A stretch of 53,984 bases of DNA from Pseudomonadales bacterium (lineage in GTDB: Bacteria; Pseudomonadota; Gammaproteobacteria; Pseudomonadales; Azotimanducaceae): positions 1 to 53,984 of the forward strand of contig JAJEIQ010000059.1 in NCBI GenBank assembly GCA_022827905.1, read 5' to 3'. This document shows, in pieces, positions 13,377 through 47,290 of this stretch. The notes below the pieces were generated by a model. It had not been told where the DNA came from and ran no database searches. It saw only the letters and a program-made list of their open reading frames with translations. Made by a program: the position numbers and the translations under genes. Every line of letters starts with the position of its first letter. Within the stretch, counting starts at the first letter, position 1.

Positions 13377-13419
13377 GCGGTGGCCCGGTCGATTCGGTGA
13401 CCAGCGGAATCCCGGCGCC

Positions 13420-14544: not shown

Positions 14545-14594
14545 GCGGCTTTGCCGCCCTTTCCATGCATCTTCCGACCAGCTGAACCACTCGT

Positions 14595-15122: not shown

Positions 15123-15232
15123 GGGAACTCCAAGGAAACTCTGTGCCGCGACGGCGGGTAGTGGCTCAATCATACCCTTTTTGAGAAGTGTAAAATTCCG
15201 CATACGCCGTCGAGGCGCCACAAAACGAACAC

Positions 15233-26780: not shown

Positions 26781-28922
26781 GTGCTGGTCGTGGGGCTGGT
26801 CGCGGCAGTGAGCGTGATGGTGGGATTGATCTCCCTGGCGAGCCTGGTGTTCTCCGGCCCCCTCGCCCCCCATGCGACCCAAGGCGTGGGCTTGATCTTG
26901 TTCGGCAGCTTCGCCATCTGCCTAGTGCTGGCCTTGGCAAGCAGCTTTCATGGCGCCGTCTCGGCGCCTCCCGGGCCCACCATGGTCATGCTGGCCATCA
27001 TCGGCGACTCCGTGGCCGCCACGGGCGACCAGCTCTTCCCGACCATGGTCGTGCTGATATTCCTGTCTTCGATGACGACCGGGGTCTTGCTGATCCTGAT
27101 CGCCAAGGCCCGCCTAGCCAGTCTGATCCGCTTCATTCCCTATCCGGTCGCCTCCGGATTCGTCGCCGGGACCGGCGGCATCATCTGCCTGATCGCGCTG
27201 TCGTTGATGGGCGTGCGGCCGGACCGGGCCGCGCTGGCAACGCTTCTCGAACCCGATGCGCTCCTGAGTTGGGGGGTGGGCGTCGCCTACGGCCTCGGCC
27301 TCTACTTTGCCACCAAACGCTGGAACAGCTTTCTGCTGTTGCCCGTCAGCTTCGTCCTCGCGACCCTGCTCTGCCACCTGTGCCTGGCCTTGCTCGGCAT
27401 CTCCGAAGATCAAGCGGAGGCGGCTGGCTTGCTGTTCGGCGGCGTGTCCGAAGGCAGTTTGTGGCCAGGCTTCAGCGTAAACGATATCTCGCGTGTCGAT
27501 TGGGGAGCCGTTGCCGGACAGATGCCCAATGTGCTCACGTTGGCGCTGGTGACGATGATCTGCGCCGTGATGTACATCGGTGGCCTCGAGCTGGCTGCGA
27601 ACCGCGAGATGGACTGGAACCGCGATCTAGGGGCGGTCGGACTCGCCAGCCTAGTGTCCGGCTTCGGCGGCGGCCCACCGGGATGCCTGATCGTTCCGTC
27701 ATCGCTGCGCAGCGTCCTGTTCGGCGTGGACATTCGTCTGACCGGCCTGGTGGCCGCGGCGTTCATCGGCGTGACCCTGTTGTTCGGCAATGCCGTGCTG
27801 AAGCTGGTGCCCGTGCCGTTGATGGGCGGGGTGCTGCTGTTCACCGGCATCGCCATGGTCGATCAATGGCTGCTGCAGGTCCGCAAACGAATTCCCGGGA
27901 CCGAATACGCCATCGTGTTGACCATCTTTTTCACCATTCTGGCGTTTGGCTTCCTGGAGGGCGTCGGCGTCGGCATGCTGATCACGGTCATCTTCTTTGT
28001 TGTCCGCCTGAGCCGAGTGGATCTGGTCGAGTCCCAGTTCACCGCGCGCGATCAATCGAGCAACAAGAGTCGCCCGATCCCGGATCGAGCCATCCTGCAG
28101 GCGCAGGGCGCGGGGGTGCAGGCCTACCGGCTCCGGGGCTACCTGTTCTTCGGCAGCAGCTACCATTTCGCGGACCGGCTGAAGCAGTCCCTAAGCGCAA
28201 CGCCGCGTCCCCTGTGCGTGCTGCTCGACTTCGAGGCCGTCTCAGGCTTCGATTTCTCAACGGTGAACGCCCTGTGCCGCTTCTTGGTCGCCGCCCGCGC
28301 TGCCCAGATTCCCGTCCTGTTCAGCGCCGCTCCCGATCGGCTCCAAAGCGAGCTGCAACGCAACCTGCCGCCGCCGGCATACGGCAACCTAACGTTCGCA
28401 CCGGATCTGGAGCATGGGCTTGAGCAAGGTGAGGATCTGGCCATCGCGGCGCACCGGCCGCACCTCAAGGGCGGCCCGGCTGACGCCACGCTGCTCGAGG
28501 CGGTGGCCGATGATCTGGAGCGTCACCTCGACAGCCAGATTCTGTTCGAGGAGCTGATCGTTGAACTCCAAGGCTGGACCCAGTCGAGCCTGTACGCCGC
28601 CGGCGAGATGTTGGCAGTGGCCGATGAACCGGATGACGGCATCAAGCTGCTTACGAGCGGTCGCGCCAGCCTTCGAGACGGCGACGGCGCTCGGCTGCAC
28701 CAGTACGGTCCCGGCGACCTGATCGAACCGCGGGGCATCCTCGGCGCATCGGGTTCCGGCGCCAAGGCCAGCGCCGATGAGCCGTGCCGAATCGAGACGC
28801 TGACCGCCGAGGCGCAACGCCTGCTGGAGGCCCGCGACCAACGGCTGGCGCTGAGGCTGTACCGGTACCTGCTCAACCGCCCTCGCCAAGCGACGCCCAA
28901 CCCGTCCAGCGAGACGGGCTGA
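26781..28922 (+). CDS. SulP-family anion transporter with STAS and cyclic-nucleotide-binding-like C-terminus
   Basis: A secondary transporter for inorganic anions such as sulfate or bicarbonate. About ten membrane segments fill residues 1-400 (VVGLVAAVSVMVGLISLASLV at the start; GGPPGCLIVPSSLRS and LMGGVLLFTGIAMVDQWLL later). A STAS domain follows (LLDFEAVSGFDFSTVNALCR, near 480). The last about 110 residues (SGRASLRDGDGARLHQYGPGDLI) resemble a cyclic-nucleotide-binding barrel, a less common fusion. The GTG at 26781 lies inside the first membrane helix. The open frame continues to a stop at 26678 with plausible residues (IQASNLVREIADDLRQPVPA), so the real start is probably further upstream at a rare codon (CTG 26700 or ATT 26706). 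The polyketide synthase follows 86 bp later on the same strand. Confidence 0.85.
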   Translation: MLVVGLVAAVSVMVGLISLASLVFSGPLAPHATQGVGLILFGSFAICLVLALASSFHGAVSAPPGPTMVMLAIIGDSVAATGDQLFPTMVVLIFLSSMTTGVLLILIAKARLASLIRFIPYPVASGFVAGTGGIICLIALSLMGVRPDRAALATLLEPDALLSWGVGVAYGLGLYFATKRWNSFLLLPVSFVLATLLCHLCLALLGISEDQAEAAGLLFGGVSEGSLWPGFSVNDISRVDWGAVAGQMPNVLTLALVTMICAVMYIGGLELAANREMDWNRDLGAVGLASLVSGFGGGPPGCLIVPSSLRSVLFGVDIRLTGLVAAAFIGVTLLFGNAVLKLVPVPLMGGVLLFTGIAMVDQWLLQVRKRIPGTEYAIVLTIFFTILAFGFLEGVGVGMLITVIFFVVRLSRVDLVESQFTARDQSSNKSRPIPDRAILQAQGAGVQAYRLRGYLFFGSSYHFADRLKQSLSATPRPLCVLLDFEAVSGFDFSTVNALCRFLVAARAAQIPVLFSAAPDRLQSELQRNLPPPAYGNLTFAPDLEHGLEQGEDLAIAAHRPHLKGGPADATLLEAVADDLERHLDSQILFEELIVELQGWTQSSLYAAGEMLAVADEPDDGIKLLTSGRASLRDGDGARLHQYGPGDLIEPRGILGASGSGAKASADEPCRIETLTAEAQRLLEARDQRLALRLYRYLLNRPRQATPNPSSETG

Positions 28923-29008: not shown

Positions 29009-32000
29009 GTGAGACGGCCGAAATCCAATCAAGGTTCCGAGCCTATCGCCATTGTCGGCATGGCCTGTCGGTTTCCCGGCGCGGCGAACCTCTCAGAATT
29101 TTGGCGTTTGCTCGAAGCGGGCGGGAACGCCGTTACGGAGGGCGTGCCCGGATCGGGAGTTGGGCGCGTGGGCGCTCTGTTCCCCGACGACACCGGGCAG
29201 ATCGAGGCCTGCCGCTTCGGTGCCTACCTTGATGAACTCGACCGCTTCGACGCCGCCTTCTTCCGCATTTCGCCGGTCGAAGCGCAATTGCTCGACCCGC
29301 AGCAACGCCTGATTCTGGAGACGAGTTGGCGGGCGCTCGAAGACGCGGGCATCGATCCCGAGGGACTGAAGGACAGCCGCACCGGCGTCTATGCGGGCAT
29401 CAGCAACAACGACTACCGTGGACTGATCCTGGAGGCCAACGAGCAGGCGCCGCCCGCCGATGCCGCTTCCAGTCTCTATGCCGTCACCGGCACCTCCCTC
29501 AACACGGCGATCGGCCGGGTTGCCTTCGCCCTTGGCCTTGGGGGGCCGGCGATGGCGGTGGACACGGCCTGCTCGTCGTCCTTGGTCGCAACCCACCAGG
29601 CCGTCACCGGCCTGCAGCAGCGCGACGCCGACATTGCGCTGGCCGGTGGGGTCAACGTCATTCTCTCCGGTCGGCTGCTCGAGTTTCGCGCCAACGCGGG
29701 CATGCTGTCACCGGACGGCCAGTGCAAGACTTTCGATGCCTCCGCCAACGGATACGTCCGAGGCGAAGGATGCGGCATCCTGGTCCTCAAGCGCCTCGCC
29801 GACGCCGAGGCCGACGGCGATCGCATCTGGGGAGTGATCCGAGGCTCAGCGCTGAACCAGGACGGCGCGAGCCAGGGCTTGACGGTTCCCAATGGGGCGG
29901 CCCAGGAGCGGGTCATCGCGGCGGCGCTTGAGCGGGCCGGGCTCCAGCCATCGGACATCGACTATCTGGAGGCCCACGGCACCGGCACGGAGGTCGGCGA
30001 CCCAATCGAAATCAACGCGACGGCGGCCGCCTTTGGGCCGGGGCGTGGCCCGGACCGCCCCTTGCTGATCGGCTCGGTGAAAACCAACATCGGCCATCTC
30101 GAGTCCGGGGCAGGCGTCGCCGGGCTGATCAAGACCCTGCTGGCCATGAACCGAGGCCTGATCCCGGCGCATCTTCATTTCCGCAATCCGAACCCCGAGA
30201 TGGACTGGGCGCGTCTGCCCTTGCGGGTGACATCCACCCCCACCCCATGGCCCAGCCGCTCCGGCCACCCGGCCCTGGCGGGCGTCAGCGGGTTCGGATG
30301 GTCTGGGACGAACGCTCATGTCGTGCTGGAGGGATACGCTGCACCGGAACGGGCGCAATCCGGCCTTGACCTGAATCATTGGGTGGTCGGCGAACCGCAG
30401 CCAGTGGCCGCGCCGTTGCCGGCGTCCGCTGCGCCGCCGCCGAAGGACAGCCTTGCCCCGCGCACCAAGCGCCTGCTACCCCTCTCCGGAAAGTCCGGCG
30501 CAGCCCTTCGCGATTTCGCGGCGCGCTACCTCGAATGGCTCGACGACCCCGCCGGGGCGCTTCCTTCCGAATGCGCCGCGTCCGATCCCATCCTTTCCGA
30601 CATGGCTTGGTCAGCCAGCATCGGCCGCAGCCACTTCGGGCATCGGGCGGGCGTGGCATTCCACAATTCGGAGTCGCTGCGCGAAGGCTTAAGGGCAGTC
30701 GCCGAGGCGGAAGAGAAGCCCGCATCGCGCCGTGCGGCGACCGTGGCGTTCGCCTACACAGGGCAGGCCAGCCAGTGGCCCGGCATGGGCGCCGCGCTCT
30801 ATGAGAGCGAGCCGTCGGTACAGGCTGTGCTCGACCGGTGTGAAGCCGTGCTCGACGAAGAACGTGGCGCCTCGCTGCTCGACCTGATGTTCGGCCGGAC
30901 GGGTGCCGCCGGTGACCTGGACGATCCGCAGTGGAAGCAACCAGCCATCTATGCCCTGGAGTGCGCCCTCACCGCCCTGTGGGCGAGCCTCGGCATCCGG
31001 CCCGACGTGGTGGTCGGACACAGTTTGGGGGAGATCGCAGCAGCGCAGGCTGCAGGGGTGTTCAGCCTTGAGGACGGATTGCGCCTCGCCGCGGTGCGGG
31101 GCGCGCTGGTCGGCGCATTGCCGGGGGAAGGCGCGATGGCGGCGGTGTTCGCACCGGTCCACCGGGTCGAGGAGGCGCTTGACGAACACAATGCGGCCGC
31201 GCAGGGCATCGGCGTTTGCATCGCCGCCGACAACGGGGCGCACCAAGTCATCAGCGGCCCGGCGACGGAAATCACTGCGATGATCGAGCGTCTGGAAGCA
31301 GCCAAGATTCGGGTGGCGCGACTGCGCAGGAGCCCCGCCTACCACAGCGCCATGATCGAGCCGGCGATGGACAACCTCGAGGCGGCCCTCTCCCAGCTCG
31401 CCTTCGCGCCGCCGTCGCTCCCCTTCGTCAGCAATCTCAGCGGAAGGACCATCGATTCGGACGAACTGCTGGACGCGGCCTATTGGCCGCGCCAGATGCG
31501 CGCGCCAGTCGCCTTTCGTGCCTGCGTCGAGACTTTGGCGGAACTGGGCGTGGACGCGGTCGTGGAGATCGGTCCCCATGCGGTGCTCGGGCCGATGATC
31601 CCGCTGGCCTGGCCGGGAACAGGCGCAACCGCCGAGCCATCGGTTGTGTCGAGCCTCAGGCGGCCAGCTTCGGGCGAAGAGCGGCCGCTACCGGGGTCTG
31701 GAGGGGGCTTCGTGGAAGCGGTCGCGGGTGCCTACGAAGCTGGGTTGCCCTTGCGCTTCGACGGGCTCTTTGCCGGTGAGGAGCGGCGCCGCACTGCGCT
31801 GCCCGGCTATCCCTTCCAGCGTGAGCGCTACTGGATTGAGGCCCCCAAACGGCGCCGTTCCAAGGCCGGGCACCCGTTGCTGGGCGCGCGGCACGACTCG
31901 GCAAGTAGCGAGATCAGTTTCGACACCGAGTTGTTCCCCTCGGAACCGGCATGGCTCGGCGATCACCGCGTGTTCGACCGGCTGGTAGCGCCCGGCGCGC

Positions 32001-35000: not shown

Positions 35001-38000
35001 TCGCCACGATTCCCTCGGTGTTCGTGACATCCGTTCTCTCCTACGAGCTAGCCGGGCTGAAGTCCGGGGACAAAGTGCTGATTCACGCGGGCGCCGGCGG
35101 CGTGGGGCTTTCGGCCATTCAGTTGGCCCAGGCCGCAGGCGCGGAGGTGTTCGCCACCGCCAGTGCGCTCAAGCAGGACTATCTCCGCTCACTCGGCGTC
35201 AATCAAGTGTTCGACAGCCGCTCCACGGCCTTCGGCCAGGACATCCTCGACGCGACCGACGGCGCGGGGGTTGACGTGGTGCTGAACAGCCTGACCGGCG
35301 AAGGCTTCATCGAGGCGAGCCTGGCCTGCCTCGCCGAGGGTGGACGCTTCGTGGAGCTCGCCAGGCGCGACATCCTCAGCGAAGCCGAGATGGCGGCGCT
35401 GCGGCCCGATGTCGGCTATTCGATCCTCGATCTCTACATCCTCAAGGAACAGGATCCCGCGCACCCAGGCACCGCCCTGAGAGAGGTGTTCGAGCGCGTC
35501 GCGTCAGGGGAGTTGACGCCACTCCGGCACACCAAGTGGCCGATGGCTGAGACGAGCGCGGCGATGGACTACATGCGCGAGGCGCGCCACATCGGCAAGA
35601 TCGTGCTCACCACATCCCCATTCCGGACGGGGCGGCTGCGCCCGGACCGAACCTACTTGGTGACCGGCGGCCTCGGCGGCATCGGCTGCGCGCTTGCCGA
35701 ATGGCTTGCCGAGCACGGCGCGGGAACGGTCGTGCTGAATGGCCGCCGGGCGCCGGACGCGGCGGCGGAGGACGCGATCGAGGCGCTGCGCGCCCGCGGC
35801 TTCAACATCGAGGTCGAGATTGCGGACGTCACGGACTCGGCTGCGCTCGATGCCATGCTGGCGCGGATGGATGCCAAATTGCCGCCCCTGGCCGGCGTCA
35901 TCCACAGCGTGGGCGTGCTGTCGGACGCCGTTCTGGGGAACCAGGCCTGGGAGAGTTTCGAGACGGTTCTGTGGCCGAAGATGCTGGGGGCTTGGCACCT
36001 TCATCGAGCAACCGCAAACCGCGATCTGGACCTCTTCGTCCTTTTTTCGAGCGTCGCCGGCGTACTGGGCAATCCCGGCCAAGCCAACCACGCCGCGGCC
36101 AACTCCTTTCTCGATCAACTCGCCGCCCACCGGCGGGCGTTGGGGCTTCCAGGACAGGCCATTGCCTGGGGCGCCTGGTCGGAACTGGGCGAGGCGGAGG
36201 AGCAGCGGGAGCGGATCGCCACTCGGCGCGAGGCGGCGGGCACCGGCTGGTTCACGCCGGAGCGGGGCTTCAAGGCCCTGGACCGCCTGCTGCGGCAGGA
36301 CGCGGCGAACACCGTGGTCGCAGCGGTGGATTGGCCCACTTTCGGTGACGCCGTAGGAAGCCATTTGCCTCTGCTGGAGGAAATGCTCGACTTTGCCGAG
36401 GACGACGAGGATTCGTCCTCATCGGAACATCTGCTCACCCAGGTCGATGCGACCCCGGAGGCGGGGCGCGCGGCGCTGTTGGTGTCCTTCCTGCAGCGGG
36501 AAGTGCAAGCGGTGCTCAGGCTGCCTTCGACGCCGGACCCCGGAGTCGGGTTCTTCGACCTGGGGATGGATTCCCTGATGGCGGTTGAACTGCGCAACCG
36601 CCTCAACCGAGCCTTCTCCGATCGCTATGCGGCCCCGAACACACTGGTGTTCGATTTCCCTTCCATCTCGGATCTGGCCGCCCACTTGGTGGACGCGCTG
36701 GGCCACGCCGAAGCCGCTCCCGCCCCCGAAACCAGCCCACGCCCCCTCGCGGGGAGCGGAGGCGACGGCATCGCGATCATCGGCATGGCCTGTCGATTTC
36801 CCGGCGCGCCGGACATCGCCGCATTCTGGCGGCTACTAGAGGCGGGTGTCGACGCGGTGACAAACGGGCGGCAGGACGAGGGTCCTTGGTCCGGAGTTGC
36901 CGGGGACCCCGAATCCAAGGACAGGCCTTGGAAGCAAGGCGGGTTTGTTGAAGGGATCGATCGTTTCGACGCACGCTTCTTCGGGATGTTGCCCATTGCT
37001 GCCCAAACGATGGACCCGCAGCAACGGCTGTTGCTGGAGACGAGTTGGCGTGGACTTGAGGATGCAGGAATCGACCCGGAAGGGCTCAAGGGCAGCCGCA
37101 CCGGGGTTTACGCCGGCATTGCAACCAGCGAGTACCGGGACCTGATGACGGCGGAAGGCGGGAGCCCCAACTATCTCGGCACCGCGAGCGGCATGGCAGT
37201 GGGCGGCGTCGCCTTCAAGTTGGGCCTCACCGGCCCGGCGATTCCGGTGATGCTCAATTGCGCGGCGTCGCTCGTCACCGTCGAACAGGCCGTCGCTGCG
37301 TTGCGCGCGGGCCAAGTTGATTTAGCCTTGGCCGGCGGCGTTAACGCAATATTCTCGCCCGGCCTAAGCAGGGAAATGGCGGCGCTCGGAATGCTGTCGC
37401 AGCAGGGGCAATGCAGAACCTTCGACGCTGGCGCGGATGGCTTCGTGCGCAGCGAAGGTTGCGGGATGCTGGTGCTCAAGCGGCTCGACGAGGCGGAGGC
37501 CGACGGGGACCGCATCTGGGCCGTCATTCGCGGGGCAGCGGTCAACCAGAACGGGGCGAGCGCCGGACCAACGGTGCCAAACGGCCCGGCCCAAGAGCAG
37601 GTGATCGAGGAAGCGCTGGCGCAAGCGGGCGTCGATCCCTCGGATGTGGACTATCTCGAGGCGCACGGAGCCGGCTCCGAGCTGGGTGACCCGATCGAGG
37701 TGCAGGCGGCCGCGGCAGTTTACGGTCGGGGGCGCAGCGGGGATCGTACCCTGCTGATGGGGTCAGTAAAGACCAACATCGGCCACCTCGAAACGGCGGC
37801 AGGGGCCGCAGCGCTGATCAAGGTCGTCCTAGCCATGCGCCACGGCCTGATCCCAAAGCACTTGCACTTTCGCAATCCGAGCCCACATCTGGATTGGGAC
37901 GCGTTGCCGGTGCGCGTGGTGTCGCGAGCAACGGATTGGCCGCACGAACCGCACCGGCAAGCACTCGCCGGGGTCAGCGCATTCGGCATATCGGGAACCA

Positions 38001-39148
38001 ACGCCCATGTCGTCGTGGAGGCCTACGGCACGCCGGACGATGCGCAAACGGCGCCCGGTGAATCGCGCTTTCCGAAGGGTTTGCCGACCCCAGTTGCCGC
38101 ATCCCTGCCGGCTGCACTCACCGAAATGCCGCTGGTGCCGGAGGAGCTTGGCTCGCGCGCAACACGGGTTTTGCCGCTCTCCGCAAAGTCGGACACCGCC
38201 TTGCGCCACCTAGCCGGGCGGTATTTGGATTGGCTCGCGGCGCGGGGCGTGCCCGCCTCCAGCCACTCCGCACCCTCCCCGCTGCTCACCGACATGGCCT
38301 GGACCGCCGGCATCGGCCGTTGCCATTTCAGTCATCGAGCCGCCGTCGTATTCGAAGACGGTGAGCAGCTACGCGATGGCTTAAAGTCGCTTGCGGCCTC
38401 CGACCGGGAGTCGGAGCCTCGCCAGGCGGTGGCAGTCGCGTTCGCGTACGCTGACCACGATGCGCGGTGTGTCGGCACGGGCGAGGCGCTTTACCGCAAT
38501 GAGCCTGTCTTCAGGGCAGTGCTCGACCGTTGCGAAGAGCTGTTCCGCGAACATTGCGGGGAATCGCTGTTAGCAGGGTTGTTCGGCCAAAACGACGCAC
38601 CGGAGGCGCAAGATCCGCCTGCCGCGCGCGCCGCTTGCTATGCGCTCCAGTGTGCGCTCACGGCACTCATGGCAAGCGTCGGGGTCCGACCCAGCATCGT
38701 CGTCGGCCACGGCGTGGGTGAGTTGGCAGCCGCTCAGGCGACTGGAACCTTGGACTTGGAGGCTGGGCTCAGGCAAGCGGCGCTGGGCGCGGCGCCAGGG
38801 AAGGCAGCGTCAAGTTCGCCAGTCGAAACCTTGGCGGATCGCGGGGCTGAGGTGATTGTCGAGATCGGCTTCGGCGAATCGGCCAGCGCTCCGAGCGCGT
38901 CCGCATGGCCCGCCACGGCGGGTGGTGCCGCAACGCCGTTGTTCCTGTCGGTTCTTCGTCCGCCGACAGGGAAGGCGCCTACAGCCGATGAGCACCGCGA
39001 ATTCGTTGCCGCGGTGGCCCAGGCCTATGTGGCAGGACTGCCGGTTTCGTTTGCCGGATTGTTCGCAGGGGAGGAGCGGCGCAGAATCTCGCTGCCCGAG
39101 TATCCGTTCGAACGCCGACGCTTTTGGATCGGTGCGACGCCGCGGTAG
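29009..39148 (+). CDS. Type I polyketide synthase: KS-AT-DH-MT-psiKR-ER-KR-ACP then KS and degenerate AT
   Basis: A 3379-residue megasynthase. KS1 spans about 12-445 (VDTACSSSL, C188; H323 in EAHGTGT). AT1 spans 578-880 (GHSLGE, S672; AYHS suggests malonyl-CoA). DH spans 955-1250 (H986 in GDHRVF; Asp in LLLDGCFQ near 1161). MT lies near 1430-1650 (LEVGAGIGSATE), then a pseudo-KR linker. ER spans 1900-2205 (HAGAGGVGLSAIQ), KR 2216-2450 (GGLGGIG), and ACP has S2522 in LGMDSLM. KS2 spans 2588-3010 (C2751 in LNCAASLV, HGAGS instead of HGTGT). AT2 runs from about 3140 to the end, with GHGVGE (G3235 replaces the Ser), an internal loss of about 130 residues and no ACP after it. The full module would make a reduced, alpha-methylated chain, probably iteratively, like fungal reducing synthases or Sup-type synthases of sponge symbionts. 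The start is GTG 29009 with a weak ribosome site. Confidence 0.95.
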   Translation: MRRPKSNQGSEPIAIVGMACRFPGAANLSEFWRLLEAGGNAVTEGVPGSGVGRVGALFPDDTGQIEACRFGAYLDELDRFDAAFFRISPVEAQLLDPQQRLILETSWRALEDAGIDPEGLKDSRTGVYAGISNNDYRGLILEANEQAPPADAASSLYAVTGTSLNTAIGRVAFALGLGGPAMAVDTACSSSLVATHQAVTGLQQRDADIALAGGVNVILSGRLLEFRANAGMLSPDGQCKTFDASANGYVRGEGCGILVLKRLADAEADGDRIWGVIRGSALNQDGASQGLTVPNGAAQERVIAAALERAGLQPSDIDYLEAHGTGTEVGDPIEINATAAAFGPGRGPDRPLLIGSVKTNIGHLESGAGVAGLIKTLLAMNRGLIPAHLHFRNPNPEMDWARLPLRVTSTPTPWPSRSGHPALAGVSGFGWSGTNAHVVLEGYAAPERAQSGLDLNHWVVGEPQPVAAPLPASAAPPPKDSLAPRTKRLLPLSGKSGAALRDFAARYLEWLDDPAGALPSECAASDPILSDMAWSASIGRSHFGHRAGVAFHNSESLREGLRAVAEAEEKPASRRAATVAFAYTGQASQWPGMGAALYESEPSVQAVLDRCEAVLDEERGASLLDLMFGRTGAAGDLDDPQWKQPAIYALECALTALWASLGIRPDVVVGHSLGEIAAAQAAGVFSLEDGLRLAAVRGALVGALPGEGAMAAVFAPVHRVEEALDEHNAAAQGIGVCIAADNGAHQVISGPATEITAMIERLEAAKIRVARLRRSPAYHSAMIEPAMDNLEAALSQLAFAPPSLPFVSNLSGRTIDSDELLDAAYWPRQMRAPVAFRACVETLAELGVDAVVEIGPHAVLGPMIPLAWPGTGATAEPSVVSSLRRPASGEERPLPGSGGGFVEAVAGAYEAGLPLRFDGLFAGEERRRTALPGYPFQRERYWIEAPKRRRSKAGHPLLGARHDSASSEISFDTELFPSEPAWLGDHRVFDRLVAPGALYGAIAASAAVAVAPGSTLVEDFQMRSALIFPQNDGTDGGEEEGRRLQVLLANDEDTSRTVRILSKGGSDDDWTLHAEGRVSAGPGSAAQADATPLDVQQLKSSLNPADISAYYRAKAQVGIDLGPCFRTLRQLWSGPGEALGEVSLPDAVGENGLEIHPLLLDGCFQVLGAARAAGSEDGVTYLPFGWERLDLPKGLADRLLCHVRLRGGRDSADAEPQEVISADIGLYDLGGSPIGTLEGYTVKRATRSALLAAVEGVEELLYEITWRDRALPPGITPADFLPSPSAAASQSRPFSEYLVQEGVLASDEAELQEEMERMSWAYALSALEALGWERQTGAAVDADALREQLEVLPEHGQLFRRMLDMLARSGVLQADGQGYVVAVGAGDALPEEMPVDQQAQLGDLSERYAHAANEIGLFRRCAGALPEVLRGNEDPLSLLFGDAEPQAGDLYRRAPVWRAANLMLGEVFKTLVEELPEGRRLRVLEVGAGIGSATECILPELPAGRFDYMYTDISAGFFADAEARFGDADAAIDYRTLDIEKDPIAQGFTPHGYDLVIAANVLHATCYLDETLGHCRALLAPSGLLVALENQRGRGWMDLIFGQLDGWWRFADRYRAHHALAGPDVWRQALADTGFTEAEVLGPDPSPTAGLPDRGVIVAQGPTEIALPKGAWLVAADRGGLAATLAGQLAAQNQTVVLASDDPENLEASIASGAGVVAAPVEPERRESWQALVESLPPDVPFAGAVHLGALDGHGTDASTEELAADAKRSMASALALAQGIADADAVPEKGLWLITQGAQVLERERTGQLAGAALWGFGRVVAREAPQLQPRMVDLDPGSASPAALIDELLFPDSESHIAHRQGRRQVARLVRAAAGTERLTLPEETNWVLAPDEGGATAALKAQPLAARTLGSKEVRVAVEASGLNFLDVFRAMGLVEEGLLGEEFCGQVVETGSEASAVSVGDRVVGFAFGAFGPEVVTQQELIAPAPPSFSASALATIPSVFVTSVLSYELAGLKSGDKVLIHAGAGGVGLSAIQLAQAAGAEVFATASALKQDYLRSLGVNQVFDSRSTAFGQDILDATDGAGVDVVLNSLTGEGFIEASLACLAEGGRFVELARRDILSEAEMAALRPDVGYSILDLYILKEQDPAHPGTALREVFERVASGELTPLRHTKWPMAETSAAMDYMREARHIGKIVLTTSPFRTGRLRPDRTYLVTGGLGGIGCALAEWLAEHGAGTVVLNGRRAPDAAAEDAIEALRARGFNIEVEIADVTDSAALDAMLARMDAKLPPLAGVIHSVGVLSDAVLGNQAWESFETVLWPKMLGAWHLHRATANRDLDLFVLFSSVAGVLGNPGQANHAAANSFLDQLAAHRRALGLPGQAIAWGAWSELGEAEEQRERIATRREAAGTGWFTPERGFKALDRLLRQDAANTVVAAVDWPTFGDAVGSHLPLLEEMLDFAEDDEDSSSSEHLLTQVDATPEAGRAALLVSFLQREVQAVLRLPSTPDPGVGFFDLGMDSLMAVELRNRLNRAFSDRYAAPNTLVFDFPSISDLAAHLVDALGHAEAAPAPETSPRPLAGSGGDGIAIIGMACRFPGAPDIAAFWRLLEAGVDAVTNGRQDEGPWSGVAGDPESKDRPWKQGGFVEGIDRFDARFFGMLPIAAQTMDPQQRLLLETSWRGLEDAGIDPEGLKGSRTGVYAGIATSEYRDLMTAEGGSPNYLGTASGMAVGGVAFKLGLTGPAIPVMLNCAASLVTVEQAVAALRAGQVDLALAGGVNAIFSPGLSREMAALGMLSQQGQCRTFDAGADGFVRSEGCGMLVLKRLDEAEADGDRIWAVIRGAAVNQNGASAGPTVPNGPAQEQVIEEALAQAGVDPSDVDYLEAHGAGSELGDPIEVQAAAAVYGRGRSGDRTLLMGSVKTNIGHLETAAGAAALIKVVLAMRHGLIPKHLHFRNPSPHLDWDALPVRVVSRATDWPHEPHRQALAGVSAFGISGTNAHVVVEAYGTPDDAQTAPGESRFPKGLPTPVAASLPAALTEMPLVPEELGSRATRVLPLSAKSDTALRHLAGRYLDWLAARGVPASSHSAPSPLLTDMAWTAGIGRCHFSHRAAVVFEDGEQLRDGLKSLAASDRESEPRQAVAVAFAYADHDARCVGTGEALYRNEPVFRAVLDRCEELFREHCGESLLAGLFGQNDAPEAQDPPAARAACYALQCALTALMASVGVRPSIVVGHGVGELAAAQATGTLDLEAGLRQAALGAAPGKAASSSPVETLADRGAEVIVEIGFGESASAPSASAWPATAGGAATPLFLSVLRPPTGKAPTADEHREFVAAVAQAYVAGLPVSFAGLFAGEERRRISLPEYPFERRRFWIGATPR

Positions 39149-39428: not shown

Positions 39429-39571
39429 TGGCGTTTTCTCCTTGAGTGGTTGACTGGTGGCGTCCCATGGCCCCTACGTAACTGGATTCCTTCCCTAGAG
39501 AGGCGATGGAGGTAGCGAGTATGCGGCAGACAACCCAGTCCCGCAACTCCCCCGTCAGGGCGGGGTGTACG

Positions 39572-42500
39572 TCAGGGCGGGGCGCCGGCGTCGTCGTCCA
39601 GGATGATGAAGGCGTCCATGTCCAGCGAGCCCGCCTCCACGTCGACGGGGAACGCCGGGTTGTCGAGGAGGAAGGGGAAGCCCGCCGGCGTCGCCTCGTC
39701 CCCGTTGGCCTCGTCGTCGTTGATGAGGCCCAAACGGACGTACATGCCCCACTCGTTCACCAGCAGGCCGCCGTCGCCCACCCAACTGCCGACGTTCTCG
39801 AAATCCCGGAAGCTGCGGCAAAGGTGGATGCCCGGCGCGTCCCGCCATTTCAGGGCGCGCGGCGCGAACCCCTCGAACTCCAAGCGCCCCGGCACCTCGC
39901 CTGGGTCAAGGCACACGCCCCTGTCCGCCTCCCCGTAGGGGACGTCCAGGCCGGGGTCGTGCGCCGTCACCAGGCTGATCTCCAGCATGGCGTGGAGCGC
40001 GTCGCGGATTCCCGCCTCGTCGAACCCCTCCCCGTCCCGGAAGTGGGTGCCGCCCTCGTACCAGGACTGGCGGAAGGACCAGTAGGCCCCCCCGCCCGCC
40101 GCGCCGGCCAGGGCCGCCGTCCACCCGCTGCCGTCGGCCACTTGGATCGTCTCCTCCATGGGGGGGGCTTGCGGGCTGGGCTGCTTTGCCCTCTTCGACG
40201 TTGAGCTCGGCTTGGGCGGGGCGGGGTCGTTGATGGTCCAGGCCACGTCAGCCGATTCGCCGGGCCAGGAGACCCTGTTCCCGCGGCCGTCCACGACCTT
40301 GACGTGCAGGTTCACCTTCTCCGGGCCTTCGTCGATGCCGTCGCCGTGCACCCGGAGGTAGAACCGGGTCTTGGCTCCGGCCAGCCGCGCCTTGGTCTTG
40401 GTGCACTTGGCGCCCTGGTCGTAGGGCTCCCCGCCGGTCGTCGCGCCGTGGAAGCCGTCCGCCCAGTTCATGACGCGGTAGTCCGCGTAGTAGGAGGCCG
40501 TTGAGCCGCTTGTGCACAGCTCCACGACCACGTGCTCGCCGTCGGGCAGCGCCGGCTCGACCACCAGGTCGAACGGCACGTCGACGCGGCTTGCGTACAT
40601 GCCCGTCTCCCCGTTGGACGCCGGCTCCGTGACCTGGTCGATGCCGCCTGGGTCCATCGTGACGGTGCGGGCGGCGCTGGCGGGCGGGCCGGACGGGTCG
40701 ACGTCGGCGGTGAAGCGCCCGGCGGCGCCGGCCGGGACCCTGTAGGTCACATTCCGGGTCTCGCCGTAGCTGCCCGAGCCGGCGGTCGGGGCCGGGCCTA
40801 TGCGGACCTCGTAGGCGTCCTCAAGCCCGTTCGCGCCCTTTCTCCTGTTGACGTACCGGAGGCACCCCGCCCGGTTGGGGTTGAGCATCTCCGTGCCGCA
40901 GGCGAACGTCCTGTCGTCGGACGTGAGGTTCGCGCCGGCGGTTCCTCCCACACTGACGTCCCCCGGACTGCTGAACGTGCCGGTCAGCCTGAACGCGTAG
41001 GTGCCGTCCTCAAGCTCCTTGAGCCTCACGTTGCCCTGGCCCGCCACCAACTCCAGGTCGTAGTCCCCCGCGGGAACGGCGTCCAGGCTGCCGTCCCTGA
41101 CCTCGATGGGGAACTCCACCGTCTCCCAGTCCATCAGGTTCCGGTCGGAGGTGCCCACGTAAAGGAGGTTGTCGGCGTGGTTGTCCTTGAAGCTGCCGGA
41201 CGTGGCGCTGCCCGCCCGGAACGCGAGGTCCTTCCGGTCCCCGTCCTCGATGCCGTCGCGCAGCCACATTCGGTCGCTTTCGTCTCTAGGACTACGAAAA
41301 TTGGCCCGCTTGAAGGAAAAGCTGTCATAATGCGGTATATCCTTAGCTTTCAAATAGAAGGAGCCATCAGGCCAATCCTCCGATGTTGAGTTGTGCCTAC
41401 TGATCGGAACCCGGTACGTGACTTCCATCGGGACGTTCGCCTTGAGGGAGGGAAAAGGATGGGGAAGAATGCCTTTTTCCGAAACCCTGCCCCGGTCCGT
41501 CGTGCTTATGCCGTCCGAATCCGTCTCAACGTAGCGGCCCTTGTCGTTCCTCACGTCGAAAAGCAGCGCCGTAAGGGCGTCCATGTCCCAATCCCTGGTC
41601 GCGGTGATCCTAGTCCTTATCAGCACAGCGTTGCTGGAAATGTCGCTCTCGTACACTTCCTTGGTCAGAACCTCCACCGTGATGGCCTGCCTGCACGTGC
41701 TGCTCAGGTCATCGTCCTTCTCCCAATCAGCGGAGTTGTTGCTGGGCCAGTCGTTTTCAAATGGATCGCTTCCGGCCTGCCGCCTTGCGTAGATGTCCCT
41801 GCTGCCCGGCTGCCTCACCTTTTCGTCCTTTGCGTAGTGGACTCCCCTTTTCCACTCAGGGTAGGCGCAGATCGTCTCTATAGAGCCCTCTTTTTCGCCC
41901 GGCGTATCGACCATCCTCACCCTGGCCGTGCTTCGGTTGCCGATGTGCAGGCCGTTGGCAACGCCGGTGACGGACACGCTGAAGTATTCTTCCCCCTCGT
42001 AGCCGTCGTAGCCGACGGTTTGAACGTCAAACTTGGCGGTGGTGCCCGCTTTGGAGGGAAACAGGACTTGGATGGGGTTGTTGCTTGCGTAGTCAAGTCG
42101 GAAATCATCCACGTCAGTCGCTACGTGGCTGGCATCGGTCGTTCCGTGGCTGAACGTCACCAGCGCCTCCGCTTCAAGCAATATCTTGTCCGGGTCCGCC
42201 AACGTGGACGTAGTGCCGTTCTCTCCGTCCTTGCACCTTTTCGAGGCGTCCGTTTCGGCGGCATCATATTCATGCAGCCTCAGCACAGGCTGCGCGGGGC
42301 CGTTGCTTTCCACTACTTGATAAGTGGGAATCGTGAACGACACGCACATGTCCGATCCCTGGGCCGTCACCCGCCTGTTCGCCACGTCGTCGTCATAGGC
42401 GATGAAGTTCCCCAAGCACTGCTCGTTGTAGCCAGGGTCCCCCCGGACGCAGTTTCCTCCCAGTCCCCTTCTCGGCACCTGTACGCTCAGGAAGCTGAAC

Positions 42501-45500
42501 TCCGGGTCGAACGTGATCGTCTCGTCGTCCATGTCGCCGTCCTGTCCCACCGACGCTGAGAAGGTCCACCCATTGCCCACGTACCCGGTTCCGATGAACG
42601 AATCCGGCTCGATCTTTTGCGTGGAGGGGTCCAGCGCCATGTAGCACGGGATGTCCCCGGCCGAGGACGGGCCGTTCGGGTACGGGTTGGCGTTTTGCAG
42701 GGCGCAGCCCTTCACGTTGAAGTCCAGGCCCCACTCAACCCCGTCGGGAATGGTCATGAAGTGCCCCTTGACCATGGCGATCTTGGCGATCTTGGTGAAG
42801 CCCCCCTCGTCAAGGTTGCCGAGCGTGTTCTCCGTCCACTCCCACTTCATCGGGTCGTTGTTTTCAACCTTGATGACGTGGGACTTGTGCTCATCCAGCA
42901 CTTGGTAGATGGAGTCAACCGCCTTGAAGGTGACGTCCAGCGTGTCGTCCCATTGCGGGGTGTTGCGCGGATCGAACGGAAGCCTGACGACGCGCCCCTC
43001 CCGCGGTATCTTGAAGGGCAACGAGACGCCGGAGTTGATGGCGTCCTCGCCCCGCATGTTCCGCCCCGTCCACTCCATTTGGATGCTTTGGTCCTTGCCC
43101 TCACCCAAGCCGGGAGTGGCGTAGACGTAGAAATCCAGCTCGTCCTCGTCATGGGGCGCGTTGGGATCGTGCTTGTACTCAACCAGGAACTGGTTGCCGC
43201 CCGGCCCGCACGTGGTGCCGGATGGAATGTTCTTCTCCACGCACTGCTTGGCCGTGTAGTTCCACGGCTCCGGCCCGATGTAGTTGGGGTCGTCGGGGTC
43301 GAGGGGCTCCGCAGGCACTGGGGGAGGGTAGACGTTGTACGTTATGTCGACAGCGTGCAAACTTACGGAGCAGGAGACGGGGCATTCCAAAACCGGGGTT
43401 ATACGAAGAAGGTGGGTGACACGCCCCGTCTCCTCATCGTAGTCGTAATCCTGCGCTCTGTCCAAGTCCCCTCTCGTGCTCCTTAACGGCAACCGGAACA
43501 CCACGGTGTTCTCCCAAGGCCGCAAAACCACCTTGCTGTCCACTTGCGTTTGGGTCTCCGGGTCAAGGTAGCTTTGCTTCAAGTAGAAGCTTCCGTTTTC
43601 CTCCTCCAAAAAACGTTCGTCAATGAGATCGGTCACAACGCCGTTAAAGGCGTCGAATTTTATTCTGAACGTCTCCGCCCGGTAGTGGCTGAAAGCGGTG
43701 GTTATTTGGAACTCAAGGATTTCCCCTAAGAGGTCGTCCATCTCCATTAGTGGAGATGGGGAGTATGTGATAGTGTCGTCATCGTAAACCCGGACACCTA
43801 AATACACGGAGTTCTTGTTACCGTGGAAGTCGTGCGCCTCGGCAAGCTCAATGTAGGTCTCGTCTAAACCATCCACGGTGTACGCGGGGTCGGGCAGTAT
43901 TTTCACGGTCACAACGTAAGAATCCCCTTGGTCAACCCTATGGTCCGTAAGGTTGCCAGTATGCAGCGTTACGGACACAACGCCGTCCGACTCCACGTTT
44001 ACGGCTCTAACGTGCTCCTGGAAACCTTCCTCTTTGTTTGGAACGGTGATCTCCATTTTAAGGTCAAACTCAACGCCTCCCGCAGGAACCGCCTCAACGC
44101 TGAGGTTGCAGTCAAAGGAATGAAGGTTCTCTGTGCCAGTGTCAAAAAGGGACGTGTCCCCGACGTTGGCGCACACATGCCGCTGCGGGGTTGTCAATGT
44201 TTTGAAGCCCACGATAGGGATGTTGGAGTCCCTGCTGTCAGTTATGACGAAAGTTTGCGCTGGGCCTTTCTCCCATAGATCGTTGTAAGGGTTGTCCTTC
44301 AACTTGATGATTCTTGCGTCCATGTTGAAGTTCCCGTCACGGCGATTGTTGTTTCTCGTTTCAAAAGCAAGCGTTTTGGTTGTTGTCCATGCATTCATAG
44401 TAACGGTCTGCTGTTTGTTACTAAAAATGTTGCCGGGCTCCTCTAGCGTCTTTCTTTTAAGGTCCACACGAAATTGATAGGGCAAAGGCAGCGCTCTGTC
44501 TGCGGTGATCTCCACAACCAGGTCCTCACCCTCCTCAACCTGCGCGGCTGACAAGCTGACCGTAGGCTTGATGGAATCAAGAACCTGAACGGTTGCTGCC
44601 GCTCCTTGGGTTACTCCCCTGTTGGGCAGGGTGTATCCGTAGTTGCTGTCCTCTAGGAATTGTAAGCTGAATCTCTTATGTTGGAAGTCGTCGTCGTTGG
44701 TGGTGCTTTCACGGAAGGTCTTTGATGTTTCGTAGGGAGACACGGTAACCGCTCTTCTGGACAGAGGCGTCCCTATGCCAGCGTCCAAGTGTACGTCGTA
44801 AGCTGCTTGTGAGGGTCTATCGGCGTTTATCTTGAATTCGATATCCTCGCCCTCCACTACGTAGAGTGGAGCCTCCGATACGGTCAACTCCGGCTTGGGG
44901 TCGTCGTTGGAAATGATTATTGCCACCGAACCCTTTTGTTTCACATTGACTTTGTATAGGTTGTCTCCGCATCCATTGGTATTGCCGCTCACAACATCAC
45001 AAGTGACTTTGAGCGCAAAAAGCTCGTTAGTTTCATAGCTATCATCCTCGTGAACGATGATATCCAAGGTCTTGGAGGTTGTCCCTGCGGGGATCGTTAT
45101 TTTATGGCCGTCGATGTTGCCGCAAAACCCGTAATCCCAATCCACAGCATCTACTGCGGGTGGGACACGAGTGTTCCCTAAGCAAGTAAGACTGACGCCT
45201 TTTGCCGTGCCGCTGCTTGTGCGCCGGGCAGTCAAGGTGAAATCCTGCCCCAGGGCCCTGTCCAAATGGATGCTTACCGGGAAAACCTTGTTTCCTGTTC
45301 CATCCCCTTCTAAAACAGATGCCGCTAGCCCACTCACTGAAACGTTGTAGGCATCCAACTTATCCTCTACTGTTAAAGTAACTACTCTGTTATTTGACGT
45401 TGTGTAGGGGAAGCTTGGAAGGTGGGACTTGATGAAGATTCTCGTCCCCCTATCCTCTATGTCAGCGTGCTCTATGGTAGGAACAGTAAAAGACACTTCG

Positions 45501-47290
45501 GTTTCATAAGCTGCCATGTCCAACTGCTTAGTGGCGTCATCCACGGCTTTCCTGTCCGCTTCTCCAAGGCCCGAGTTATCGTCCCGGATGATAACATTAA
45601 AGGTGTAAAGGTTTTGCGCTTTTCTGTCGGCGGTGACCGTGACCTTTATGGGGTCGCCTTCGGTTACATCGTTGGCTGCTATCGACAAGAGCGGTTTCGG
45701 GTCGTTCTCCACGATGGTGATTGGGTTGGTGACGATGTTGACCACGTAGTTGTGGCCGTCCCCGCCGCACCCGGACTCGCAGGTCACCACCACGCCCACC
45801 GTCTCGTCCCCTTCGTAAACGTCATCATTGTGGGTGACCATGCCCCCCACTCCCCCGCCGGTTGTTCCTGAGGGAAAAGTCACTGTGTAGCCGCTGTCGA
45901 AGCCGCCCTGCTGGAAGCCGTAGTCCCAATTGGGGTTGGCGCTGTTGTCGGACCAGATGGGGCCGTTCTTGAAGTTGGATGGGCGGGCGGTCCCCGCTGT
46001 TTCGGACCCTTTGACGCGAACCACAATGGGGTGCCCGGCCACTGGGGACACCGACGCCCTTAACTGTGTTACCTTCTGGGTTCCGCCATCGCCTTCGGTT
46101 ATCGGATCGGCCATTATGGTTACGGTGTGGGTTTGCTGTTGCTGCTGATCCTGGGAGCCTTGTTGGGGTTGGGGAGGGGCCTCCGGTTCCGGCTCGACTG
46201 TGGTTTGCTGCGCTTTTTCAAGGCACTGCAGCACCTTGCGCACCGGGGCCCAGCCGGACCACACCTTCTCGCCGTCCTCGGCTTCCTTGACGGTGTACGC
46301 CGTGGTCGGCTTGGCGGTCGCTCCCGTCCATGTTGGCAGCGCCCGTTCGGGGTCTTCACCCTGGTAGGCTATCAGCACCCTGTACCAATTCGCCCCGTAG
46401 TTGGGGGACTTGCTCCTGTTGGAGTTGTAGTAGCCCGCGACCGTGTCCCACTGCTCGTCGCCCACGCAGGACGACGGGGACGGCGCCGGGTCGGATGGCG
46501 GCGGGGGAGGGGGCGGGTTGTCGCGCACCAGGACGGACGCGCCCGCGTTGGCGGTTGCGCTCGTGCCGCTTCGGGCGTTCGTGCCGGAGCCCTTTACGGT
46601 AACGGATAGGCCAACAGTGACGTTGCTGTCGGAATCCACGGCCGGGCGCGTCCAGGTCGGGGTCGGCGAGGCGGCGTCGTCGAGGGCGCCCATGGACACG
46701 GTCCAGGCGTGCTCCGGCGCCCCGTCGTAGGTTCCGCCGGAGAGCGTTGCGCTGAGGGGGGCGGCGGTTCCCTCGTCCCCGTCGGCAATGGCATTGATGA
46801 GCACCGACGGTGCGGCGGCGTCGGGGAGCGTCGGCGGGTTGAGGCACTCCAGCACCTCCCGCACCGGGGTCCAGCCGGACCACACCGCCTCCCCCTTCTC
46901 CGCCTCCTTGACGGTGTACGGGGCGGTCGGCTTGGCGGTCGCTCCCGCCCAGGTTGGGAGCGCCCGTTCCGGGTCCTCGCCGCGGTAGGCGATTAGGACG
47001 CGGTACCAGTTGGCGCCGTAGTTCGGGCTGTTGGCCTTGTTGGAGTCGTAGTAGCCCGCCACCGCCTTCCACTTGGCATCGTCCACGCAGTCGGCGGCGC
47101 GGGCCTTGGGCGCGAGCGCGAAGGCCATCAGCAGCAGCGCCGACAGCAGGGCGCCGGTCACGGCTGCGCCGATGGTTGGGGGCGTTGCCGACGGCGCGGA
47201 TTTCCCCGGTCCGCAGCTTGGGGGGGGGGGCACAACGGTGGCCTCGCGCGCGCAAGGCGCGGACCGGGCTGGGCGGGGTCGCCGCGTCAA
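39572..47290 (-). CDS. Giant secreted Calx-beta-repeat protein (2572 residues), poly-C tract near 5' end
   Basis: A very large exported protein. A hydrophobic signal (GALLSALLLMAFALAPKARA, about 46-65) is followed by two copies of a module of about 80 residues (68-150 and 275-357; CVDDAKWKAVAGYYDSN, PNYGANWYRVLIAYRGEDPE, WSGWTPVREVLECL). A long series of Calx-beta-type domains comes next (repeating D-x-T-E-G-D and H-x-D-D-x-Y-E-x-x-E patterns), Asp-rich and calcium-binding in known relatives. The C-terminus is acidic (ILDDDAGAPP) without an LPXTG or an evident sorting domain. The start is uncertain: TTG 47290 reads through an 11-C tract (47220-47230) before the signal peptide, and a frame from TTG 47330 would need a tract change of one base to join it. 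GC content falls visibly in the centre (about 43.5-45.7 kb). It probably acts in adhesion or surface structure. Confidence 0.85.
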   Translation of the reverse strand: MTRRPRPARSAPCAREATVVPPPPSCGPGKSAPSATPPTIGAAVTGALLSALLLMAFALAPKARAADCVDDAKWKAVAGYYDSNKANSPNYGANWYRVLIAYRGEDPERALPTWAGATAKPTAPYTVKEAEKGEAVWSGWTPVREVLECLNPPTLPDAAAPSVLINAIADGDEGTAAPLSATLSGGTYDGAPEHAWTVSMGALDDAASPTPTWTRPAVDSDSNVTVGLSVTVKGSGTNARSGTSATANAGASVLVRDNPPPPPPPSDPAPSPSSCVGDEQWDTVAGYYNSNRSKSPNYGANWYRVLIAYQGEDPERALPTWTGATAKPTTAYTVKEAEDGEKVWSGWAPVRKVLQCLEKAQQTTVEPEPEAPPQPQQGSQDQQQQQTHTVTIMADPITEGDGGTQKVTQLRASVSPVAGHPIVVRVKGSETAGTARPSNFKNGPIWSDNSANPNWDYGFQQGGFDSGYTVTFPSGTTGGGVGGMVTHNDDVYEGDETVGVVVTCESGCGGDGHNYVVNIVTNPITIVENDPKPLLSIAANDVTEGDPIKVTVTADRKAQNLYTFNVIIRDDNSGLGEADRKAVDDATKQLDMAAYETEVSFTVPTIEHADIEDRGTRIFIKSHLPSFPYTTSNNRVVTLTVEDKLDAYNVSVSGLAASVLEGDGTGNKVFPVSIHLDRALGQDFTLTARRTSSGTAKGVSLTCLGNTRVPPAVDAVDWDYGFCGNIDGHKITIPAGTTSKTLDIIVHEDDSYETNELFALKVTCDVVSGNTNGCGDNLYKVNVKQKGSVAIIISNDDPKPELTVSEAPLYVVEGEDIEFKINADRPSQAAYDVHLDAGIGTPLSRRAVTVSPYETSKTFRESTTNDDDFQHKRFSLQFLEDSNYGYTLPNRGVTQGAAATVQVLDSIKPTVSLSAAQVEEGEDLVVEITADRALPLPYQFRVDLKRKTLEEPGNIFSNKQQTVTMNAWTTTKTLAFETRNNNRRDGNFNMDARIIKLKDNPYNDLWEKGPAQTFVITDSRDSNIPIVGFKTLTTPQRHVCANVGDTSLFDTGTENLHSFDCNLSVEAVPAGGVEFDLKMEITVPNKEEGFQEHVRAVNVESDGVVSVTLHTGNLTDHRVDQGDSYVVTVKILPDPAYTVDGLDETYIELAEAHDFHGNKNSVYLGVRVYDDDTITYSPSPLMEMDDLLGEILEFQITTAFSHYRAETFRIKFDAFNGVVTDLIDERFLEEENGSFYLKQSYLDPETQTQVDSKVVLRPWENTVVFRLPLRSTRGDLDRAQDYDYDEETGRVTHLLRITPVLECPVSCSVSLHAVDITYNVYPPPVPAEPLDPDDPNYIGPEPWNYTAKQCVEKNIPSGTTCGPGGNQFLVEYKHDPNAPHDEDELDFYVYATPGLGEGKDQSIQMEWTGRNMRGEDAINSGVSLPFKIPREGRVVRLPFDPRNTPQWDDTLDVTFKAVDSIYQVLDEHKSHVIKVENNDPMKWEWTENTLGNLDEGGFTKIAKIAMVKGHFMTIPDGVEWGLDFNVKGCALQNANPYPNGPSSAGDIPCYMALDPSTQKIEPDSFIGTGYVGNGWTFSASVGQDGDMDDETITFDPEFSFLSVQVPRRGLGGNCVRGDPGYNEQCLGNFIAYDDDVANRRVTAQGSDMCVSFTIPTYQVVESNGPAQPVLRLHEYDAAETDASKRCKDGENGTTSTLADPDKILLEAEALVTFSHGTTDASHVATDVDDFRLDYASNNPIQVLFPSKAGTTAKFDVQTVGYDGYEGEEYFSVSVTGVANGLHIGNRSTARVRMVDTPGEKEGSIETICAYPEWKRGVHYAKDEKVRQPGSRDIYARRQAGSDPFENDWPSNNSADWEKDDDLSSTCRQAITVEVLTKEVYESDISSNAVLIRTRITATRDWDMDALTALLFDVRNDKGRYVETDSDGISTTDRGRVSEKGILPHPFPSLKANVPMEVTYRVPISRHNSTSEDWPDGSFYLKAKDIPHYDSFSFKRANFRSPRDESDRMWLRDGIEDGDRKDLAFRAGSATSGSFKDNHADNLLYVGTSDRNLMDWETVEFPIEVRDGSLDAVPAGDYDLELVAGQGNVRLKELEDGTYAFRLTGTFSSPGDVSVGGTAGANLTSDDRTFACGTEMLNPNRAGCLRYVNRRKGANGLEDAYEVRIGPAPTAGSGSYGETRNVTYRVPAGAAGRFTADVDPSGPPASAARTVTMDPGGIDQVTEPASNGETGMYASRVDVPFDLVVEPALPDGEHVVVELCTSGSTASYYADYRVMNWADGFHGATTGGEPYDQGAKCTKTKARLAGAKTRFYLRVHGDGIDEGPEKVNLHVKVVDGRGNRVSWPGESADVAWTINDPAPPKPSSTSKRAKQPSPQAPPMEETIQVADGSGWTAALAGAAGGGAYWSFRQSWYEGGTHFRDGEGFDEAGIRDALHAMLEISLVTAHDPGLDVPYGEADRGVCLDPGEVPGRLEFEGFAPRALKWRDAPGIHLCRSFRDFENVGSWVGDGGLLVNEWGMYVRLGLINDDEANGDEATPAGFPFLLDNPAFPVDVEAGSLDMDAFIILDDDAGAPP
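46220..46468 (-). repeat. Module of about 80 residues, copy 2 (in the 2572-residue protein)
   Basis: Starts CVGDEQWDTVAGYYNSNRSK, continues PNYGANWYRVLIAYQGEDPE and ends WSGWAPVRKVLQCLEKAQQ. It is the second copy of the shared module, about 120 residues after the first and just before the Calx-beta series. Confidence 0.75.
46843..47089 (-). repeat. Module of about 80 residues, copy 1 (in the 2572-residue protein)
   Basis: Encodes C-x7-VAGYYDSN, PNYGANWYRVLIAYRGEDPE, AYTVKEAE-like and WSGWTPVREVLECL blocks directly after the signal peptide. Copies 2 (46220-46468) and 3 (49498-49745) keep the same order and both terminal cysteines, so a disulfide-closed domain is likely. I do not recognise a named family. 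Confidence 0.75.
47220..47230. repeat. 11-bp poly-G (poly-C on coding strand) upstream of the signal peptide of the Calx-beta protein
   Basis: Eleven consecutive G on the plus strand read as C on the coding strand, within codons 20-25 of the giant surface protein. Slippage by one base would connect or disconnect the signal peptide and body from upstream starts (TTG 47290 or TTG 47330). This is the classical arrangement of a phase-variable surface gene. Sequence error is the alternative. Confidence 0.85.

Follow-up and report, generated by a model that had tools for sequence, protein, structure and literature searches.

The PKS studied here is best compared with the Sup group of sponge symbionts, in which the polyketide synthase (PKS) SupA has the architecture of a single reducing module, KS-AT-DH-MT-ER-KR-ACP. 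For its C-terminal end two other kinds of enzyme are relevant, the KS-AT didomains of CurL (4mz0) and DEBS (2hg4), whose ATs are complete, and the modules of trans-AT PKSs, in which a KS and a linker stand without a working AT and the partner domains are found on other proteins. In the accessible text of PMC4245539, SupA is described as small and monomodular, with mid-chain-branched fatty acids as the proposed product, and the re-examined poribacterial genomes are without supA. SUP-like clusters are reported from MAGs of sponge symbionts belonging to Chloroflexota, Spirochaetota, Proteobacteria and Acidobacteriota in the accessible text of PMC9426513, and the permease SupE is cited for a sup clone in that of PMC3908369.

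By description, and not by sequence, the PKS encoded in the window (the whole stretch of DNA analysed, 53,984 nucleotides) can be set beside SupA and appears to fit the sponge Sup group. Like Sup, which is distributed among sponge symbionts of unrelated phyla (PMC9426513, accessible text), it belongs to an iterative PKS group with a wide, probably sponge-associated distribution, but the descriptions of SupA, as far as the sources are accessible, give neither a terminal KS-AT pair nor a stand-alone ACP, and here both are present. SwfA is likewise a sponge-specific iterative PKS, yet it is described as KS-AT-DH-ER-KR-ACP, with no MT and no terminal KS-AT (PMC3908369, accessible text). With trans-AT modules the locus shares a KS (KS2) with linker, an AT remnant and a candidate partner ACP on a separate protein; it differs from them in that KS2 groups with the KS1 of its own family, in a tree without trans-AT KS domains, and in that no dedicated trans-AT was found in its own genome by Pfam. 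Neither a stand-alone ACP nor a KS-AT pair at the C-terminus is mentioned in the accessible parts of the literature on Sup and related PKSs (PMC9426513, PMC4245539, PMC3908369, PMC10308959, PMC4849084, PMC4210886, PMC12795557). Literature searches on AT docking domains and on the Sup cluster likewise turned up no account of this C-terminus, and a search for the combination of a truncated AT, a C-terminal KS and a discrete ACP found no paper.

Layout of the PKS gene

The Pfam domain order of the PKS through its integrated ACP is that of a single reducing module with a C-methyltransferase, to which a second pair, KS2-AT2, is added (Table 1). The initial annotation had described a complete reducing module ending in an ACP (S2522) and followed by an extra KS, and these positions check out. 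The residues that it named are also found as stated: KS2 keeps C2751 in LNCAASL (at 2749 in PKS numbering) and has HGAGS for HGTGT (EAHGAGS at 2884; NIGHLE at 2923), and AT2 has GHGVGE at 3233, with G3235 for Ser. That no carrier domain follows is confirmed by the Pfam search of the protein, which gave no ACP behind KS2-AT2 and no working AT, KR, DH or ER after KS2; the protein stops after YPFERRRFW (at 3365) of the post-AT linker.

Table 1. Features of the PKS gene and its neighbourhood in the window
Feature	Position	Strand	Remarks
Alpha/beta hydrolase, 306 aa	25594..26514	-	candidate release enzyme
SulP-STAS-cNMP transporter	26781..28922	+	directly upstream of PKS
Iterative-type PKS, 3379 aa	29009..39148	+	KS1-AT1-DH-MT-ER-KR-ACP-KS2-AT2 (AT2 predicted dead); single open frame, Pfam domains
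KS1	29042..30298	+	DTACSSSL, EAHGTGT, NIGHLE
AT1, complete	30749..31588	+	GHSLGE at aa 670, SPAYHS at aa 775; Pfam
Integrated ACP	36491..36688	+	S2522, DLGMDSL at 2517
KS2	36770..38035	+	C2751 present, as are both His and the Lys; differs from KS1 at fixed positions
KS-to-AT linker domain LD2	38171..38443	+	limits drawn from alignment; as constrained as LD1
AT2 remnant	38444..38998	+	G3235 for Ser, catalytic-His block deleted; limits approximate
Post-AT linker LPEYPFERRRFW	38999..39145	+	strongly conserved, end of protein
Stand-alone ACP, 76 aa	39198..39428	-	GVSSVD motif
Second alpha/beta hydrolase, 311 aa	47424..48359	-	52% identical to first

The terminal KS-AT pair in relatives

A scan of one-per-species genomes with the MT region as query confirmed 296 loci, of which the best 80 were examined. 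Sixty-four of these had a readable C-terminus, and 16 were set aside, 11 because they run off their contig and 5 (L069, L105, L110, L111 and L126) because the PKS meets a premature stop, through either decay or assembly error. Within the 64 loci, the frame is broken farther upstream in L117 and L131, and L091 and L122 start at a contig end. With the window, L021 and L022 the 64 loci make up 67 C-termini, and 11 of twelve further regions bring the number to 78, all distinct in sequence; the twelfth, L152, was not counted, its KS2 start being unmatched by the search pattern though it has the same end linker.

All 78 readable C-termini (67/67 and 11/11) keep the KS2 Cys, lack the AT2 His block and have no ACP behind. 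Homologues with an intact second AT and ACP, which the initial annotation had set against its own reading, were searched for, and neither an intact second His block nor a following ACP occurred in any of the 78, drawn from the best 80 of 296 loci and the others. As a control, AT1 keeps Ser and His at a spacing of 172–174 residues in 62/62. By these comparisons the KS2-AT2 end is a fixed trait of the family and not an accident of the window's genome.

The record titles of the best 80 of 296 loci name eight phyla, Pseudomonadota, Acidobacteriota, Gemmatimonadota, Nitrospirota, Latescibacterota, Chloroflexota, Binatota and Nitrospinota; these names are the submitters' own, and binning may err. 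A sponge is named in one title among these 80 loci (L134), and for the others a sponge origin is presumed from the bin names. Closer to the window, a search with KS2-AT2 gave close two-KS proteins in the same-family genomes G014 and G015, and 26 of 206 genomes of the family gave matches with E values of 1e-120 or below. In 21 of these 26 genomes the match lies in a frame of ~3000 aa or more; it is fragmented in G068, G203 and G221 and is one KS of a shorter PKS in G013 and G139. In its own genus (nine genomes) the PKS is present only in the window's genome, and a class-wide sample of 369 genomes added one more two-KS frame (G405). The MT region was matched at 1e-40 in 7 of 398 genomes sampled across the phylum, among which only the window's own match reaches family level (6.6e-221, the next being 2.6e-74). 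In G976 and G979 the MT region of the PKS family occurs in a second copy within the genome, in frames of 3485 and 1789 aa.

Because the longest exact word common to both PKS modules is 17 bases and there is no N in the gene, an assembly collapse is unlikely. The initial annotation had raised such a collapse between repeated modules; it was checked from the sequence and not found. One gene does hold two homologous KS-AT pairs, as a collapse or chimera of two modules would, but the shared words are short and the same block is absent in 78/78 C-termini from many assemblies, records titled as chromosomes (L104, L107, L114 and L119) included, and we give this explanation practically no weight.

Extent of the deletion in AT2

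From GHSxGEIAA to EIGP, AT1 of the window spans 173 residues and AT2 only 42. AT2 is thus 131 residues short, against the ~130 estimated at first, and among what it lacks is SPAYHSAMIEP, the block that carries the catalytic His. Of the 319 positions of Pfam Acyl_transf_1, AT1 covers 2-271 and AT2 13-115 only, and occupancy of the AT1 columns in the AT2 alignment drops to zero between about VRGALVGALPGEGAM and SPAYHSAMIEPAMDNL. From AT structures, we take the deleted block to be the small subdomain and the catalytic-His loop. The spacing varies among the 67 C-termini: it is 81-101 residues in 59, 110 in one and at most 60 in seven, which include the window and L060 (0).

A functional acyltransferase needs its Ser-His dyad, and among the 78 readable C-termini the AT2 His block is present in none and GHS in four; judged by these residues, AT2 is catalytically dead. 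It had been asked whether homologues keep both the deletion and the change from Ser to Gly. The deletion is indeed common to 78/78, but the loss of Ser, although frequent, is a separate matter, since GHSLGE is still found despite the deletion in L104, L106, L119 and L133, so that in these four lineages the Ser was retained after the block had gone. The loss of the His block apparently came before the spread of the family.

An AlphaFold model of KS2-AT2 had a mean pLDDT of 71.4, with 13 of 21 ten-residue blocks at 80 or above in residues 551 to 760 (the AT2 remnant) and a patchy KS part. In comparisons of KS2-AT2 with the PDB, the CurL and DEBS didomains rank near the top both by sequence and by fold; they differ from it in that AT2 of the window is without the catalytic-His block. 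Because the top Foldseek matches, all KS-AT didomains, superpose at an rmsd of ~8-11 Å, the model shows only that the AT2 remnant is predicted to fold.

Origin and conservation of KS2

In the KS tree, the KS2 domains form one clade (27 rows, support 100/99) and the KS1 domains another with weaker support (24 rows, 77/97), and KS1 and KS2 together stand apart from 19 other PKS KS domains (100/100), an outgroup taken from genomes of the window's own class, which is not a full PKS sample and holds no trans-AT KS and no SupA reference. KS1 of the window groups with KS1 of the 80-locus family (best 80 of 296). From this clade pattern we read KS2 as one internal duplication of KS1 that took place before the family spread; that KS2 is sister to all KS1, rather than having arisen within KS1, appears less certain.

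Mean identities among 62 proteins are 75.8% for KS1, 72.2% for KS2, 57.1% for LD1, 57.4% for LD2, 67.4% for AT1, 58.6% and 38.6% for the N and C parts of AT2, and 68.8% for the end linker. Values of dN/dS (Nei-Gojobori, 26 pairs sharing no row) are 0.126 for KS1, 0.168 for KS2, 0.316 for LD1, 0.311 for LD2, 0.193 for the end linker, 0.153-0.254 for the parts of AT1, 0.311 for the N part of AT2 and 0.572 for its C part. These ratios indicate that KS2 is under purifying selection, and the pattern suggests that KS2 behaves like an enzyme and AT2 like a framework, with a drifting core and linkers that hold; the weakly constrained C-terminal core may be close to filler. The initial annotation had argued from the open frame that the truncated AT is kept by selection. 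This holds for KS2, for the KS-AT linker, which is constrained as in module 1 (0.31 against 0.32), and for the post-AT linker, but is weaker for the AT2 core. One could see in KS2-AT2 a decaying, functionless remnant of a lost second module, for the catalytic residues of AT2 are gone, dN/dS reaches 0.57 in its C part and its size varies (spacing 0-110 residues). We consider this very improbable in view of KS2 itself (dN/dS 0.17, 72% identity, Cys in 78/78) and of the same kind of end, with a single origin, in all examined over eight titled phyla.

The catalytic residues of KS2 are nearly invariant, with Cys in 78/78, the first His in 77/78 and the second in 78/78, which leaves the Cys-His-His set complete in 77/78; the Lys of KTNIGHLE is kept in 67/67. 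L130 is the only KS2 of the 78 in which the first catalytic His is replaced (EAQAVGS). Non-elongating KS0 domains are usually without one catalytic His, a loss that KS2 does not show. Chain-length factors, for their part, are without the active-site Cys. KS2 could be taken for a chain-length-factor-like partner of KS1, as a second KS in one chain without an ACP of its own recalls PUFA synthases, but its Cys is present throughout, and we regard such a role as improbable. HGTGT is altered to HGAGS in 37/67 KS2, which might weaken carrier binding or condensation. Moreover, 15 positions that are nearly fixed in KS1 hold another common residue in KS2, for example R227, which is M in 57/58, and KS2 therefore probably has a task of its own.

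The stand-alone ACP and other neighbours

In the window, the stand-alone ACP is convergent with the PKS and does not share an operon with it. Among the best 80 of 296 loci, tblastn placed such an ACP near the PKS in 59/64, in 54 of them within 3 kb, and it was not found in L057, L077, L095, L129 and L133 (5/64) by tblastn and then HMM. An HMM search of six further regions gave an ACP in L156 and L157 and none in L155, L158, L159 and L163, which have short flanks. The ACP Ser is conserved in 66/66 aligned sequences, after four decayed or partial rows were dropped. Gene order varies: the ACP lies directly downstream of the PKS on the same strand in 18 of 64 loci, an ACP-PPTase-hydrolase operon follows the PKS on one strand in 13, and hydrolase and ACP are convergent behind the PKS in 28; in many loci the ACP sits beyond the hydrolase, on the other strand. 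The ACP beside the hydrolase has decayed in L094, L096 and L097, where an intact second copy is found a few hundred bases further along, which looks like the replacement of one ACP by the other.

An alpha/beta hydrolase is found in 59/64 loci and a PPTase in 29/64 (best 80 of 296); the window's own genome has one PPTase-family match. The two hydrolases of the window flank the cluster, one on each side. A very long minus-strand protein (39572-47290) separates the stand-alone ACP from one hydrolase, genes that are neighbours in many relatives. This protein shares a cassette of ~80 residues (GYYxSN...PNYGANWYRVLIAYRxE...RALPxW) with another very long minus-strand protein at 48414-53936; Pfam gives no domain in the former and only fn3 in the latter. 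Plus-strand open reading frames at 39506-43486 were considered as cluster genes and rejected: Pfam gave nothing for them, and we interpret them as shadow frames of the repeat-type protein on the minus strand. The SulP-STAS-cNMP transporter, a possible counterpart of the permease SupE, also adjoins the PKS in G014 and G015, was not found by tblastn in the 80 loci (best 80 of 296), and is of uncertain membership in the PKS system. Further upstream, two acyl-CoA dehydrogenases, a luciferase-like monooxygenase and ABC transporter genes stand in a row at 10979-16688 (+).

A Pfam search of the window's genome gave three AT matches, of which two are AT1 and AT2 and the third lies in a 316-aa frame, and a dedicated trans-AT was found neither there nor in 5 of 6 other genomes; these five have AT1, AT2 and one FabD-size AT, and the sixth has one more AT in a 2367-aa frame.

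A proposed split-module model

We think it rather probable that KS2-AT2 is a split module, in which KS2 works in trans with the stand-alone ACP and the dead AT2 serves as framework. Most simply, the missing carrier of the last module would be supplied by the neighbouring ACP, a partnership that we infer from gene neighbourhood (59/64 loci); the ACP could instead serve the hydrolase or another enzyme. In the split-module model, KS1-AT1-DH-MT-ER-KR-ACP would make a reduced, C-methylated chain, as its domains suggest, and KS2 would take this chain from the integrated ACP onto C2751. KS2 and the stand-alone ACP would then either carry out a condensation with ACP-borne malonyl or hand the chain over to the ACP, after which the co-encoded alpha/beta hydrolase or the lipid machinery of the cell would take it. 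Malonyl for the stand-alone ACP, if used, would come from AT1 or from the sole FabD-size AT seen in the Pfam search of the genome. The AT2 remnant would keep the KS-LD-AT framework and, with the post-AT linker, probably holds KS2 and its ACP docking surface in shape. The initial annotation had expected an external carrier for the terminal KS, and a candidate is now at hand near the PKS; the choice between condensation and transfer is still a matter of inference.

Both are branches of the split-module reading, and from the sequences we give them about equal weight. It is possible, though somewhat doubtful, that KS2 is a transfer gate, which would move the completed chain from the integrated onto the stand-alone ACP without condensation and feed it into lipid synthesis or fatty-acid elongation. 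This would be consistent with the want of a working AT and of KR, DH and ER after KS2, with the altered HGTGT in most KS2 and with the fixed differences between KS2 and KS1; it could also explain mid-chain branches, since elongation by the fatty-acid system would come after the methylated segment. Such a gate is harder to reconcile with the near-complete retention of Cys, both His and Lys. That retention would allow a further condensation, in which KS2 extends the chain by one more step, using malonyl borne by the stand-alone ACP, and the resulting beta-keto thioester is released by the hydrolase as a beta-keto acid or methyl ketone; the presence of ACP and hydrolase each in 59/64 loci fits as well. 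This alternative, equally tentative, has against it that the extender could be loaded only by AT1 or the FabD-size AT, there being no dedicated trans-AT in the own genome or 5 of 6 others.

Meaning for the family

We propose, as a tentative but real possibility, that a terminal KS on a dead-AT scaffold acts as the exit port of a type I iterative synthase, linking it to a dedicated type II ACP from a neighbouring gene; in the literature searched, no description was found of a release or hand-off of this kind, by a KS2 and a type II ACP, for an iterative PKS. If the chain does leave via KS2 onto a separate ACP, the PKS expressed alone would miss its partner, and the pair of KS2 and ACP would be a concrete experimental target. 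Because the dead AT2 lacks one and the same block across eight titled phyla, it also offers a clean natural experiment on the role of the AT framework for a KS. If the proposal is true, this mode of exit would have been kept over eight titled phyla in a widespread PKS family of sponge symbionts.
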